Shown piece by piece: positions 4,011-10,667 of a stretch of DNA of 35,285 nt. The stretch is from NCBI GenBank assembly GCA_016934605.1, contig JAFGSO010000172.1:1-35285 (forward strand). Reading direction: 5' to 3'. The DNA is from Calditrichota bacterium. GTDB taxonomy: Bacteria > Calditrichota > Calditrichia > RBG-13-44-9. Every line of letters starts with the position of its first letter. The stretch's first letter is position 1. A program made the position numbers and the translations under genes. The notes below the pieces were generated by a model that saw nothing but the letters and a program-made list of their open reading frames with translations, did not search any database and was not told where the DNA came from.

Positions 4011-6851
4011 ATGAAGCAATTTTCACTGATTATTTTTCTGATTTTATCCCTTTCCATTTTCTTGCCGGAAAAATCTGAGTCACAATGGTATTATTACGGA
4101 CGGAATAAAGTTCAATACACAGATTTCGAATGGCATGTTCTTAAAACAGATCATTTTGATATTTACTATTACCCTGAGATGGCAGAGCTCGCGGAAAAAG
4201 GAGCCGCATTCGCAGAGGAGAGTTATCGCTATCTGGAAAACAAATTTAATTTCACAATTAACAGGCGGATCCCGCTCATCTTCTACAGTTCCCATCTCCA
4301 TTTTCAGCAAACCAATATAACCCCTTACTTTGTGCCGGAAGGAGTCGGCGGATTTTTTGAATTTCTAAAGGGTCGGGTTGTTATACCGAGCGATGGAAAC
4401 ATCAACCAGTTCCGTAAAGTCATTTTCCATGAACTGGTGCACGTTTTCATGCATAGTAAGATTTATTTCGAAAACAAAGAACATTCTCGATTTGAGGGTA
4501 CTTATCCCCCGCTCTGGTATGTGGAGGGACTTGCAGAATACTGGTCCTCTGAATGGGATGCCCAGGCGGAAATGGTGATAAGGGATGCTGTTTTGAACAA
4601 TTATATTGTTCCGCTTTCCAATATGTATCAGATAAACGGAACCTTTATGATGTACAAGGAAGGTCAGGCTATTCTCACCTACATAGCCAACACCTACGGC
4701 GAAGAAAAAATTCTTCAATTGATGGAAGAGATCTGGAAATATGGAAAATTCTCAGATGTTTTTCAGGAGGTTGTTGGAAAAACCTATGAACAGTTCGATC
4801 AGGAATGGCTGTATTATCTGAAAAAAAAGTACTATCCCCTTATGGAAGACAATGATTTTTCAAAAATGATAACGTATTCGGTTGTCACACGGGGATATAA
4901 CTTTAAACCGGCTTATTATAAAGATGTCAACGATGAGGAATATGTTGTGTTTTTCGGAAACCGGGGCGGTTACTCAAATATCTATATTAAAGATCTACGT
5001 CCTTTCCGGCTGGAACAGAAAGAGAAAGCGGAAATTCTGGTTAAGGGAGAAAGAACTCCGGATTTTGAATCACTCCATCTTTTTTCCAGCAAAATTGATG
5101 TTGATAAAGCAGGGAATCTTACATTTTCCTCCAAGAGTGGTGAGAATGACGCCCTCTACATTTACAGCATACCGGAGCGTCGGGTGCTAAAAAAACATCA
5201 ATGGTCGCAGATTGTCGCAATTTCCTCTCCATCATTCTCTCCGGACGGACATAAAGTCGTCTTTGCAGGAGTGGATTTCAGCGGAAAACAGGATCTTTAT
5301 ATTCTGGATCGGAATGAAAATTATTTAATCCGTTTAACCGATGATTTTTATGAAGATAAAGCTCCTTCTTTCTCTCCGGACGGACGAAAAATCGTTTTTT
5401 CTTCCGATAGAACCATGCATGGGAAAGACTGGTGTTACAACCTCTTTATCTACGATCTGGATACAGACCTGATACATTATGTAACATACGGCCGATTTCA
5501 GGACGAGACACCGGTCTGGAGTCCTGATGGTCAATATATCGCATTCACATCCAACAGGGATACTTCTTTGAATTTGTGGATAGCAGATTTATCTGACATA
5601 CAGGACTGGGAAATCGGATTTTATGATCGGGTAAAGCTAAAACAGATTTCCCGGTTTATTAATGCTGCTTTCGATCCGGAATGGACAGACGATAACCGTT
5701 TACTTTTTACTGTTTATGAGAACAATCGTTTTGAGATCCGAATGATGGACAAAATTAAAGAAAAAAGTGACTCCACTCAGTCCATTGTCAAGAATGAAAA
5801 AATGTTCGGACATCGCCAGTGGAAATATAATCGTGTTCCCGGAAGCAAAATACAATCGAAACTACGCTATCAGAAAAAATATGATCTTGATATTGCTCAG
5901 GCCCAGGTCAGCCAGGATCCGTTCTGGGGGACCACCGGTGGAGCGGTTTTTGCATTCACGGATATCCTGGGAAATGATCAATATTATTTCATGCTGTACA
6001 ACAATGCTCAGAGTCGAGGTGATTTTTTCAAGAGTTTTAACGGAGCAGTTACCAAAGTTTCTCTGGAAAACCGCCTTAATCACGCCTATGGCCTTTTCCG
6101 CTTTTCAGGAAGATATTTTAATTATAAAGACGGCTATTTCTATGAAGATAGGGTTGGAGGATTCTTTACCCTCAGCTATCCATTCTCACAATATAACCGA
6201 ATGGAATTTAATACCAACCTGAGTTATTCGGATAAGGATGTTATTGGACTGGACAGACGACATGCCATTATCACTTCCAATTCAATATCTTTTGTATCGG
6301 ATAATTCCATATGGTGGTATACCGGTCCCATGGAAGGTCATCGATATAATATTTCTGTGGGCAATACCTACGATTTGAGATGGTCGAATGTCAACTATTA
6401 CACATTCAGAGCGGATCTCAGACAGTATACCCGTCTCGCACCCCGGCTGAGTCATGCCATCCGTGTACTCCTGCTATATAATGAAGGGAAAGATTCCCGC
6501 TGGTACTATCTTGGGGGAAGCTGGGATCTGCGGGGATACCGGCAATGGTCTATCCGCGGGGAAAAAATCTTTTTTTTATCCAATGAACTAAGATTCCCAT
6601 TTATCGATTACATCGGTATTAAATTTCCATTCCTGGGTCTTGGTTTTCGGGCCATTCATGGAGCACTTTTCCTCGATGCAGGGAATGCATGGAATGACGA
6701 GTGGAATGGTTTGCTGGGAAGTACCGGTTTTGGTTTTCGCATGAATTTCGGAGGATTTCTGGTACTCAGACTGGACATTGGTAAAAAAACTGATTTCAGA
6801 GAATTTACTTCCGATTGGTTTACTCAATTCTTTTTTGGATGGGATTTCTGA
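4011..6851 (+). CDS. Peptidase MA-like gluzincin / TolB-WD40-like propeller / Omp85-like outer-membrane barrel fusion
   Basis: 946 aa ORF with signal peptide; HELVH zinc motif with downstream VEGLAEYW; repeated SPSFSPDGHKVVFAG / APSFSPDGRKIVFSSD / TPVWSPDGQYIAFTSN blades; C-terminal GGSWDLRGYRQW...FLDAGNAWNDEW...LDIGKKTDF and terminal Phe. Confidence 0.85.
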   Translation: MKQFSLIIFLILSLSIFLPEKSESQWYYYGRNKVQYTDFEWHVLKTDHFDIYYYPEMAELAEKGAAFAEESYRYLENKFNFTINRRIPLIFYSSHLHFQQTNITPYFVPEGVGGFFEFLKGRVVIPSDGNINQFRKVIFHELVHVFMHSKIYFENKEHSRFEGTYPPLWYVEGLAEYWSSEWDAQAEMVIRDAVLNNYIVPLSNMYQINGTFMMYKEGQAILTYIANTYGEEKILQLMEEIWKYGKFSDVFQEVVGKTYEQFDQEWLYYLKKKYYPLMEDNDFSKMITYSVVTRGYNFKPAYYKDVNDEEYVVFFGNRGGYSNIYIKDLRPFRLEQKEKAEILVKGERTPDFESLHLFSSKIDVDKAGNLTFSSKSGENDALYIYSIPERRVLKKHQWSQIVAISSPSFSPDGHKVVFAGVDFSGKQDLYILDRNENYLIRLTDDFYEDKAPSFSPDGRKIVFSSDRTMHGKDWCYNLFIYDLDTDLIHYVTYGRFQDETPVWSPDGQYIAFTSNRDTSLNLWIADLSDIQDWEIGFYDRVKLKQISRFINAAFDPEWTDDNRLLFTVYENNRFEIRMMDKIKEKSDSTQSIVKNEKMFGHRQWKYNRVPGSKIQSKLRYQKKYDLDIAQAQVSQDPFWGTTGGAVFAFTDILGNDQYYFMLYNNAQSRGDFFKSFNGAVTKVSLENRLNHAYGLFRFSGRYFNYKDGYFYEDRVGGFFTLSYPFSQYNRMEFNTNLSYSDKDVIGLDRRHAIITSNSISFVSDNSIWWYTGPMEGHRYNISVGNTYDLRWSNVNYYTFRADLRQYTRLAPRLSHAIRVLLLYNEGKDSRWYYLGGSWDLRGYRQWSIRGEKIFFLSNELRFPFIDYIGIKFPFLGLGFRAIHGALFLDAGNAWNDEWNGLLGSTGFGFRMNFGGFLVLRLDIGKKTDFREFTSDWFTQFFFGWDF

Positions 6852-8017
6852 TGAAACTGGCAATTCGGATGAATAAATACAAAATATTTCTACTGGTTTT
6901 ATCATTATCGACGGGATGTATTTTGTCCTGCAGCGGACTTATCAAATTAAAGGTCTCTGAAGAGGAACTGAGCTCAGACCAGGAAAAATGGACAACTGTA
7001 TTCTCATCCAATAACCGGCATAATTCGGTGGATTCAGACCTCATTCCCCCGTACCGGATCGCCTGGAGGAAAGGATACAAGTCTGTTATAACAGATCAAC
7101 CCCTGGCTGTGGCAGACCATCTGATATTTACCACCCGGAATGGAAACCTGGCTTTCCTGAATATATCCAAAGGTCAGATGCTTGGCGATGGACGGATTGC
7201 CCCTGGATTCGACCATGCCCCCGTCATTGAAAATTCCACTTTATTCTACGGCGCCAGTCTGGGAGAAAAAACTCTGGTAGCTTTGAATATGTTGAACCTG
7301 AAAAAAATCTGGGAAACCAAACTGGGACATGTTTATACCTCTCCTGTGATATGGAAGGAAAATATATACGTCGGGACCAATAATAATAAAATAGCAGCAG
7401 TGAATAAGAACAATGGTGAAAAAATCTGGCAATTCGATGCTGGCGCTTCTCCGGTTGGAATACCTGCAGAAAATGAGGGAAGATTATTTTTTTCTGATAT
7501 TCAGGGAAATCTGTATTGTCTGGATGCGGAAAGTGGAAAGGAAATCTGGAGAAAAACTCTTGAAACGAATGTATACAGCGGACCTGTAATTGCTGACGGG
7601 CGCTTATTCATCGGAACAACTGCCGGAACATTCTTCGCATTTTCTGCTGACTCTGGTAAGTTTTTATGGAGGACGCAAACTGAGGGTGCCATCTTTGGAC
7701 ATGCCTCTTACAGAGACGGTGTGGTTTACTTTGGAAATAATGCTCATGCAGTTCATGCCCTAAGGGCAGAAGATGGTAGTAAATTATGGAGTTTCAAAAC
7801 AGGCGGTATTGTAAATACAACACCTCTGGCCGGCAGAGAATATATATATGTTCTCTCCTGGGATAAAAAACTGTATATAATTTCCAGATTGGATGGTGAG
7901 GAGGTTTATCATATGGAATTTAATAAACCATTCAAGTCATCGCCGTTGATATATCGGAATAAATTGATTATACACACCGCAAATGATGATATCATTTGTT
8001 TGGAAAGCAGGGAATAG
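6851..8017 (+). CDS. PQQ-like beta-propeller lipoprotein, BamB-like
   Basis: Track ORF 6815-8017; probable start ATG 6851 overlaps the upstream stop (TGATG), alternative ATG 6869. Signal peptide with lipobox-like ILSC|SG; repeats GEKIWQFDAG, GKEIWRKTLE, GKFLWRTQTEG, GSKLWSFKTGG. Confidence 0.82.
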   Translation: MKLAIRMNKYKIFLLVLSLSTGCILSCSGLIKLKVSEEELSSDQEKWTTVFSSNNRHNSVDSDLIPPYRIAWRKGYKSVITDQPLAVADHLIFTTRNGNLAFLNISKGQMLGDGRIAPGFDHAPVIENSTLFYGASLGEKTLVALNMLNLKKIWETKLGHVYTSPVIWKENIYVGTNNNKIAAVNKNNGEKIWQFDAGASPVGIPAENEGRLFFSDIQGNLYCLDAESGKEIWRKTLETNVYSGPVIADGRLFIGTTAGTFFAFSADSGKFLWRTQTEGAIFGHASYRDGVVYFGNNAHAVHALRAEDGSKLWSFKTGGIVNTTPLAGREYIYVLSWDKKLYIISRLDGEEVYHMEFNKPFKSSPLIYRNKLIIHTANDDIICLESRE

Positions 8018-8024
8018 CAGAGGA

Positions 8025-8795
8025 ATGAAAATGAATAAATTAATCCTCATAATTTTGTTATTATCCTCTCTGGCCTGGGCCGGGGGACAAAAAATTGCCC
8101 ATTTGACCATATACTCTTCATCCGACGATATTGAAATCAGATTGAATTCGGCATTGCTTGGAAAAACGCCCATCCAAAAGCTCAGTCTGCAGGAAGGTCA
8201 TTATATCATAGAAGCTGTCAACAAAAATTCTGGTGTCTGGAGTGCTGAAAATGTTACCCGTGATATATTTCTTCAGAAAGGACAGGATACTACCATATAT
8301 ATTCATTTTCCTAAAATGGTGAAAATAAATTCCGTGCCCTATCACGCCAAACTGACACTGGATGACCAGTTCATCGGTCTCACACCGGCAACACTTGAAT
8401 ATGAAACCTACCGGGGGAAAAAATTCCTGCTCGAGAAATCCGGATATAAACCGGCAACTTTTGTTTTGGAGAATGACAAACCGCAGTTTTATACACTTGA
8501 ACCACTGGTTTTGAACAGGAATGAGGAAGAGAAACATTCATTCAGTCATTCACTTTTCCAATCGAATCTCAAAACAAAATTTTTATTCCTGACAGGAACC
8601 GTGGTAACGCACTGGCTTGCTTTTTATCTGAAAAATGAAGCGGATGATAATTTTGAGAAGTACTCTGTTACCGGCAATCCTGTTTTGATGAAAAAATACT
8701 GGGATAATACGCAAAAATATGATAGATGGTCCGATATTTCTCTGGGTGTATCTTATGCCTTGCTCGGTGGGTTAATATATACTGTAATCAAATAA
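8025..8795 (+). CDS. PEGA-domain protein with signal peptide and C-terminal TM segments
   Basis: Track ORF 7983-8795; likely start ATG 8025 (MKMNKLILIILLLSSLAWAGG) preceded by AGAGGA. PEGA-like segments IEIRLNSALLGKTPIQKLSLQEGHYIIEAVN and AKLTLDDQFIGLTPATLEYETYRGKKFLLEKSGYKPATF. Confidence 0.72.
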   Translation: MKMNKLILIILLLSSLAWAGGQKIAHLTIYSSSDDIEIRLNSALLGKTPIQKLSLQEGHYIIEAVNKNSGVWSAENVTRDIFLQKGQDTTIYIHFPKMVKINSVPYHAKLTLDDQFIGLTPATLEYETYRGKKFLLEKSGYKPATFVLENDKPQFYTLEPLVLNRNEEEKHSFSHSLFQSNLKTKFLFLTGTVVTHWLAFYLKNEADDNFEKYSVTGNPVLMKKYWDNTQKYDRWSDISLGVSYALLGGLIYTVIK

Positions 8796-9074
8796 AGTTT
8801 TGTAGTATAAATAAACAAATTCTGAAAATGATATTTATAACTTCCGATTTACACCAAAAATTTCATCCCGTAGGTGATCCACCAAGAAGTAATCCCATCA
8901 GGAGAATCCATTTTTACTATCAGTTAATCATTCCTATTTAAATATGTATGGCCTGTGCTTGGCATGATTAAAGGAATGATATCATATAATCTCTGAATTT
9001 ATAAGGTAAGTATTAACATTTTAATAATTTTTCAGAAGTTTTTCATATAAAGAAAAAACTCTTCAAAAAAAGAC

Positions 9075-9103
9075 TTGACAAGGTTAGGATTTTTATGTAT
9101 TTT
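9075..9103 (+). promoter_or_regulatory. Putative sigma70-like promoter
   Basis: TTGACA at 9075-9080, 17-nt spacer, TATTTT at 9098-9103 preceded by TG, directly upstream of the candidate small RNA. Confidence 0.45.
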
Positions 9104-9105
9104 TT

Positions 9106-9177
9106 GATCGACCTGAAAAGGTCAAAAACCTCCCTCCCAACTCCGCAGGGGACACGCACCGTGTCCCCTGTTTTTTT
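9106..9177 (+). ncRNA. Candidate small RNA, about 70 nt, unknown family
   Basis: Promoter-like boxes upstream; hairpin GACCT-GAAA-AGGTC (9110-9123); unpaired-looking C-rich CCTCCCTCCC (9129-9138); perfect stem-loop and T7 tract at 3' end. No ORF explains it. Confidence 0.5.
9146..9177 (+). terminator. Rho-independent terminator
   Basis: CAGGGGACACG (9146-9156) / CAC loop / CGTGTCCCCTG (9160-9170): 11-bp perfect stem followed by TTTTTTT (9171-9177). Confidence 0.88.
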
Positions 9178-9260
9178 ATTAAAGATGAATTAATGATCAA
9201 CTATTATTATTTTAGGGCGTTAGATTATGTAATATTGAATATTGATTTGGAGAATATTTT

Positions 9261-10667
9261 ATGAAACACTTACATCCGGTTATCTTATTCATATTAGTGA
9301 GCATAACCACCAATCAAGCACAAACAGGATTTATCCCTTTATCAATCGATCATGCGATTTTCAAAGCTGAAAAAAATAAAGTGTATCTGGAGATCTATCT
9401 CTCCTTCAACGAATCTCACTTGCAATATATTGATCAGGACCAACAGTATATGGCTGAGTACATGGCAACGGCACAGATACTACAGGGAGACAGCTTGCTC
9501 TTTCAGGATGTCGATAAACGGAAAAGTCAGCTGGATTCAATGAACGAAATTTCCGCCTACAGGAAATTTTTAAATATATTTGGATTCATTATTGATGACG
9601 GTAGCTATTCGGCAAAAATTACCGTTCAGGATCTGCATTCTCCCCGGAAAGGCGAGTATATATTCGATTTTGAAGCCCGACCATTTCCAGAACAGGAACT
9701 GATGATTAGTGATATTGAATTGTGCAGCCATATCAGCGCCGATACCGCAAAAGGTGATTTTCAGAAAAATTCTTTTCTGGTCATTCCCAACCCGGGAAGT
9801 ATTTTTAGTGTAAATATACCCGTGGTCTATTACTATGCAGAGCTTTATAATCTGAAAATGACAACCGGAGATCCCGGCCAATATAAATTAAGGACATCCA
9901 TCAGAGATTTAGAGGGTAATTCTGTTAAAGAATATCCCGAAAAAATCATAAAGAAACCCGGAGAAACCGCGGTTCTTGTTGGTGGTCATAATATTGTGAC
10001 CTTACTGTCTTCCACTTATTTTTTCAATATCGAAATTGAAGATTTGGACTCCCGGGAAATTACACGAACCTCAAAACGCTTCACTTTTTTTAAGCCGGAA
10101 ACTGAAGAAGGTCGTCCTGGTGATTCACTTTATGCAGCCGATAAAGAAACGGTTTCTATCGCGGAATATCTGCAGTACGGTGAAGAAGAACTTCTCACCC
10201 AATTTGAGAAGACCAGATATATCTCCACAAAAAAAGAACGGGATATTTTTAAGAATCTAAACCTTGACGGAAAAAGAGTATTTTTAGCCAGATTCTGGAA
10301 AAAATTTGATCCAACCCCCGCAACCGAGGTCAATGAATTTAAACAAAATTATACCGAGTTGATTAACTTCGCCGAAACCAATTTCTCCTCGATGAATAAA
10401 AAAGGCTGGGAAACAGACCGGGGACGGGTACTTCTTTCTTATGGCAGTCCTGATGAAATTGAACGGTTCTATATGGCTATTGATATGAAACCACATGAAA
10501 TATGGCATTATCATGAGTTGGAAGGCGGAGTGCTATTTGTTTTTGCCGATTTATCCGGATTTGGAGACTTTGAGCTGCTTCATTCAACCTACAGCAAAGA
10601 GCTATACCAGCCTGATTGGGAAAGATTGGTTAGAAGAACGCAGGGTGGATTTGATTATGAGCGATAA
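9261..10667 (+). CDS. GWxTD domain-containing exported protein
   Basis: 468 aa ORF with signal peptide; C-terminal KKGWETDRGRVLLSYGSPDEIERF matches the GWxTD signature. Confidence 0.85.
   Translation: MKHLHPVILFILVSITTNQAQTGFIPLSIDHAIFKAEKNKVYLEIYLSFNESHLQYIDQDQQYMAEYMATAQILQGDSLLFQDVDKRKSQLDSMNEISAYRKFLNIFGFIIDDGSYSAKITVQDLHSPRKGEYIFDFEARPFPEQELMISDIELCSHISADTAKGDFQKNSFLVIPNPGSIFSVNIPVVYYYAELYNLKMTTGDPGQYKLRTSIRDLEGNSVKEYPEKIIKKPGETAVLVGGHNIVTLLSSTYFFNIEIEDLDSREITRTSKRFTFFKPETEEGRPGDSLYAADKETVSIAEYLQYGEEELLTQFEKTRYISTKKERDIFKNLNLDGKRVFLARFWKKFDPTPATEVNEFKQNYTELINFAETNFSSMNKKGWETDRGRVLLSYGSPDEIERFYMAIDMKPHEIWHYHELEGGVLFVFADLSGFGDFELLHSTYSKELYQPDWERLVRRTQGGFDYER

Follow-up and report, generated by a model that had tools for sequence, protein, structure and literature searches.

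The Hfq-independent small RNA (sRNA) alpha-r14/NfeR1 of Sinorhizobium meliloti carries CCUCCUCCC in unpaired regions and acts at translation initiation regions (PMC10746234). Its C-rich anti-Shine-Dalgarno (anti-SD) motif is ultraconserved and unpaired, its stems are kept while their sequence varies, and it is transcribed from its own promoter (PMC10746234). The same traits mark the predicted RNA described here, termed type A, which is encoded in a window of 35,285 nucleotides (the whole stretch of DNA analysed) from a member of the Calditrichota. Yet, NfeR1 folds into three hairpins each with CCUCCUCCC, whereas type A is built from one hairpin, one linker, CCUCCCUCCCAACUCC, and one terminator in 14/14 homologues. 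Moreover, NfeR1 belongs to the Alphaproteobacteria, type A homologues occur in one Calditrichota order only, and no homology between the two was detected.

In Firmicutes, C-rich regions of RoxS and FsrA pair with mRNAs with no known RNA hub protein, and several sibling sRNAs have such regions in common (PMC8216469). Type A is also C-rich and resides in a phylum without recognisable Hfq, but it differs from RoxS/RsaE and FsrA in architecture and phylum and has no Rfam match to these families. The hairpin loops of the alphaproteobacterial CcsR or “cuckoo” RNAs carry CCUCCUCCC, and these recurring C-rich loops, a likeness to type A, are regarded as the active part. The cuckoo RNAs share a polycistronic transcript with a DUF1127 gene, from which RNase E releases them (PMC10253847), whereas type A appears as one gene standing alone, with promoter and terminator of its own and with neither DUF1127 nor another neighbour conserved across families. 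Finally, GibS of Bacteroides thetaiotaomicron is a trans-encoded intergenic sRNA in a host lacking Hfq and ProQ, and acts at start regions through a highly conserved, long single-stranded seed (PMC7366714). This seed is the unstructured 5' end of GibS; in contrast, the 5' end of type A is a hairpin, and its seed an internal C-rich linker.

Type A displays features of the C-rich, trans-acting anti-SD sRNAs, namely a conserved, SD-complementary C-rich motif in a region predicted to be unpaired, and a free-standing intergenic gene with promoter and terminator of its own. In design we liken it to NfeR1, RoxS/FsrA and GibS, while it is a member of none of them; it is a new RNA family of a known functional kind. 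For the Calditrichaeota, one review counts just one annotated sRNA (PMC9029176), and our literature search retrieved no paper on the sRNAs of this phylum beyond that review. Rfam 15 gave no match in the window, in line with novelty, and a permissive Rfam scan of three loci returned chance matches only, none of them near the gathering score or on the RNA's own strand.

Predicted architecture of the type A gene

The gene occupies a gap between a stop codon ending at 8795, 280 nt before the -35 element, and a start codon at 9261 (Table 1). The RNA is predicted to start at around 9107-9111 and to end within the T-run. Its linker comprises an A-run (9124-9128), CCTCCCTCCC (9129-9138) and AACTCC (9139-9144), or, read as a whole, the A-run followed by CCTCCCTCCCAACTCC (9124-9144). 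The terminator stem (9145-9171) consists of 12 pairs closed by a 3-nt loop, with the T-run extending to 9177.

Table 1. Coordinates of the type A elements in the window and of related features in Calditrichota genomes.
Feature	Location	Strand	Basis or remarks
-35 element TTGACA	9075..9080	+	sequence; same letters in 14/14 homologues
-10 element TATTTT, 17-nt spacer	9098..9103	+	spacing 17 in 14/14 homologues, there mostly TATATT
Type A sRNA, predicted, ~70 nt	9106..9177	+	inferred from -10 position and terminator
5' hairpin GACCU-GAAA-AGGUC	9110..9123	+	fold; pairing across 14 homologues
Unpaired A-run and C-rich seed CCUCCCUCCCAACUCC	9124..9144	+	unpaired in predicted structure
Intrinsic terminator GCAGGGGACACG-CAC-CGUGUCCCCUGU and U-run	9145..9177	+	fold, terminator scan, covariation
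Type B RNA, candidate	L097 1501-1606 (G000:C255:5060-5165)		further loci L098, L099, L100, L101
Y1 transposase of G004	G004:C1:400821	+	start region GUUGGAGGGAGGUUUAUCAUG

The type A unit of the window folds with a z-score of -6.2, a value reached by 0/200 shuffles, and its terminator is the only terminator-like site in the gap (0.2 expected). Promoter matches in the gap (3 found vs 2.4 expected) are at chance level taken alone; the promoter is significant because TTGACA and the exact 17-nt spacing are kept in all 14 homologues, and not as a single match. None of the start codons opens a conserved small open reading frame (ORF), and the entire unit, including the terminator hairpin, is present in a single copy in the window's genome.

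Most of this layout had been read from the window by a first-pass annotation, which described a near-consensus promoter (TTGACA-17-TATTTT), a 5-bp hairpin capped by a GNRA-type GAAA loop, an apparently single-stranded C-rich linker complementary to ribosome-binding sites and an extremely strong terminator, and which held that a unit some 280 nt past the previous stop is not simply the terminator of the upstream gene. Promoter, linker, terminator and distance agree with our analysis. The hairpin was located correctly as well, yet its cap is GAAA in the window's genus and UUCC, GCAA, GUUAU or others elsewhere; type A is not defined by a GNRA loop.

Conservation and distribution

The linker is the invariant part of type A. 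The 21-mer AACCTCCCTCCCAACTCCGCA (9127-9147) is the same at every position in 14/14 homologues, and AACCUCCCUCCCAACUCCGCA is likewise identical at 21/21 positions. The search did not itself produce this invariance, because it permitted two mismatches and yet no mismatched homologue turned up. TTGACA is identical at all 6 positions in the 14 genomes, while identity amounts to 34% in the 17-nt spacer, 33% upstream of the -35 element and 25% downstream.

The stems follow a different rule. Across the 14 homologues 98.6% of the cells in both stems are paired, with two-sided changes in 8/15 pairs; in slid controls the paired share is 36-52%. The 5' hairpin accounts for 97.1% paired cells and two-sided changes in 3/5 pairs, the terminator for 99.3% and 5/10 modelled pairs. 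Two-sided cells number 16, compared to 2.8 in shuffles, and 0/500 shuffles reach this count. The underlying alignment was fitted to the covariance model; an independent MAFFT/RNAalifold analysis yielded 7 pairs with two-sided changes. As judged from these substitution patterns, selection on the stems is for pairing with the letters free, and selection on the linker is for the letters themselves. The first-pass annotation had made its novel sRNA dependent on stem covariation and linker conservation in relatives, and both are found. Together with the conserved promoter, the single copy, the order-wide occurrence and the lack of an Rfam match, they bear out that proposal, and we hold with high confidence that the type A sRNA gene is real. 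With 21 nt invariant and 14 homologues aligned, there is enough material for an Rfam entry and for the design of a seed-mutation test.

Linker pattern searches in 40 genomes of the phylum revealed one type A gene per genome in 14/16 genomes of the window's order (3 families, 11 genera) and in 0/24 of the others. The two order genomes without type A are 62% and 88% complete. Each homologue comprises TTGACA, a 17-nt spacer, a TATA-type -10 element, the hairpin and the terminator. A DNA search within the family found type A in both other genomes of the genus; in one genome of another genus, identity was confined to the linker, with stems and promoter present in different letters. A covariance model (R2) run over the same 40 genomes recovered the same 14 (E <= 2e-12), followed by two chance terminators; the window itself, whose sequence is part of the model, matches at 9105-9178 (91.9 bits, E 5.6e-18). 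Weak model matches outside the order, in G015 and G030 (L052, L053), are ordinary terminators and were rejected as homologues.

An exact linker scan of 84,980 species genomes returned 13 records of the Calditrichota type and four others. The latter (Neorhizobium, Pontibacter, Chloroflexi and Ignavibacteria) have no promoter, stems or terminator and were likewise discarded. Linker matches in viral contigs were not found. As far as these searches reach, the predicted type A gene is confined to one order of the Calditrichota.

A second RNA with the same motif

The linker search also turned up type B, a candidate RNA of ~105 nt in five genomes (the window's own, G000, on contig C255, and G003, G001, G030 and G031). 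Its 12-13-bp closing stem, GGCAAUGGGGC/GCCCCAUUGCC, encloses a large loop with UCUCCCCUC and CCUCCCUCCC, and a terminator completes the unit. A TTGACA-17-TATATT promoter precedes type B in G030 and G031. In all five genomes type B follows a conserved ORF whose product ends in IYP and a short tail; the ORF after type B in G000 and G003 looks, by eye, like an aconitase gene. Scaffold and context differ between the two RNAs, and the C-rich motif alone is common to both. This suggests that CCUCCCUCCC is the active part, and type B is the strongest indirect argument for it.

Proposed mode of action

We propose that a free-standing gene with its own housekeeping-type promoter gives rise to a ~70-nt RNA whose 5' hairpin protects it, whose C-rich seed, AACCUCCCUCCCAACUCC, leaves 18 nt unpaired and whose 3' end is a strong terminator. 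The seed, which holds three anti-SD-like cores (CCUCC/CCUCCC/ACUCC), would pair with ribosome-binding sites rich in G (GGAGG/GGGAGG) on a number of mRNAs and thereby block translation initiation. SD sequences are in use in the order: GGAGG lies within 20 nt of 244/1,834 starts in G004, a count for which start choice was partly SD-guided. Type A would act in trans and without Hfq, which in none of the 40 phylum genomes (0/40) scores above the curated cut-off of PF17209, whereas five control genomes do. Two weak sub-threshold matches to Hfq (L112, L113) were noted in the 40 genomes.

Type A probably acts by such anti-SD pairing, because the C-rich motif is invariant and unpaired, recurs in the unrelated type B and resembles that of known C-rich sRNAs. 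Of the mechanisms considered, we rank anti-SD action in trans first, with moderate confidence. Type A looks like convergent evolution in compact form: its C-rich anti-SD-like seed sits on a scaffold unrelated to those of known sRNAs, Hfq is not recognisable in the phylum, and a second unrelated RNA bears the same seed.

Exact-match searches at start sites and two patterns for translation initiation regions, applied to 16 genomes, gave no recurring conserved target, and the pattern matches were mostly non-genic ATGs; nor is GGAGGTTT, as a preferred target core, enriched among SDs. Duplex energies were calculated for 1,796 start regions in 2.4 of the 4.06 Mb of G004. Duplexes of -20 kcal/mol or better occur at 23 of these regions, as opposed to 12.5 +/- 4.3 for shuffled seeds, 2/60 of which reach 23. 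Start regions are no richer than internal coding regions, where 46 such duplexes occur. The best single start duplex is unexceptional (17/60 shuffled seeds equal it), and the best internal one reaches -29.6. At most, start regions are slightly more complementary to the seed than background, and these searches proved no target. The idea of an anti-SD riboregulator, raised by the first-pass annotation, gains from the invariant, unpaired motif and its recurrence in type B, and finds in the target searches a marginal excess and no conserved target.

The best of the 1,796 start regions belongs to an IS200-like transposase (Pfam Y1_Tnp) with GUUGGAGGGAGGUUU (-26.3 kcal/mol), and another Y1 transposase ORF, in G003 (L163; G003:C84), has GGGAGGGAG before its start. 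A radC-like gene (UPF0758_N) is among the top G004 matches; a similar ORF in G029 is preceded by GTTGGGAGG. S23-type four-helix ORFs (two in G004) and DUF559-like ORFs also rank near the top. S23 ORFs (PF05635) were dismissed as conserved targets, because a G-rich start region is not a constant trait of those in genomes with the sRNA (7 scored, against 14 in genomes lacking it). This family of 23S rRNA intervening-sequence proteins is present in 36/40 phylum genomes, with up to 14 copies per genome. That types A and B together make up a C-rich riboregulon, independent of Hfq and present across the order, which silences selfish genes among other mRNAs, is a speculative extension to which we give little credence.

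Alternatively, type A may be a genuine sRNA whose C-rich linker is not an mRNA seed but the site of a single-strand RNA-binding protein, as in a sponge or an RNP scaffold. An invariant stretch of 16-21 nt exceeds the needs of most anti-SD seeds, pairing by which is partly redundant and seems to require less than 21 fixed positions; this leaves room for a protein partner. Furthermore, no target enrichment stands out, and RNA-binding proteins other than Hfq are likely in a phylum where Hfq is not recognisable. On the other hand, three registers of the motif are complementary to SD cores, type B contains the CCUCCCUCCC part only and in another structural setting, as expected of a pairing seed, and a candidate protein was not identified. 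We consider a protein site unlikely, though worth keeping in mind.

The anti-SD cores also bring to mind the 16S rRNA tail. By repeating CCUCC, the linker resembles the 16S anti-SD and might titrate a factor or SD-containing RNA globally instead of repressing particular mRNAs, and the order uses SD sequences to a moderate degree. Yet, the remainder of the linker, AACUCCGCA, is equally invariant and has no likeness to the 16S tail, and a global titrator would need extreme abundance. Such mimicry is improbable.

Genomic neighbourhood

The genes flanking type A change from family to family. In the window's family the upstream gene codes for a PEGA-domain protein on the same strand. In family f3 the upstream gene, which we take by eye to be trmB (tRNA m7G methyltransferase), is divergent and the same in all six homologues. 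Other genes lie upstream in family f2, divergent in 3/4 homologues. Downstream genes vary between families and are often convergent. Because neighbours differ between families and are often divergent, type A is, on this comparative evidence, not a leader, nor is it the terminator of what lies upstream.

For the window and two sister species one could envisage a cis-acting role, type A being the leader or attenuator of the next gene, which encodes a GWxTD protein (start at 9261 in the window) and lies on the same strand. Beyond the genus, type A is followed by other genes, often convergent ones, a loss of synteny that largely refutes this explanation; in addition, the terminator forms unconditionally in every fold while the C-rich seed stays unpaired, and a leader function is very unlikely. 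A strong GC-rich palindrome with a T-run might finally be taken for no more than the terminator of the operon upstream, for a repeat, for a mobile palindrome or for a product of chance, but this is hardly credible and refuted by the comparative data, since the terminator hairpin occurs once in the genome (which rules out a REP palindrome), the upstream gene is divergent in most f2 and all f3 homologues, and the 17-nt promoter spacing, the invariant linker and the covariation are maintained.

In the window, the surrounding cluster (4011-10667) includes, within the window's family, genes for a peptidase-MA/beta-propeller protein, a 400-aa protein (6815-8017) and the PEGA protein; the GWxTD-domain protein after the sRNA belongs to this cluster within the genus.
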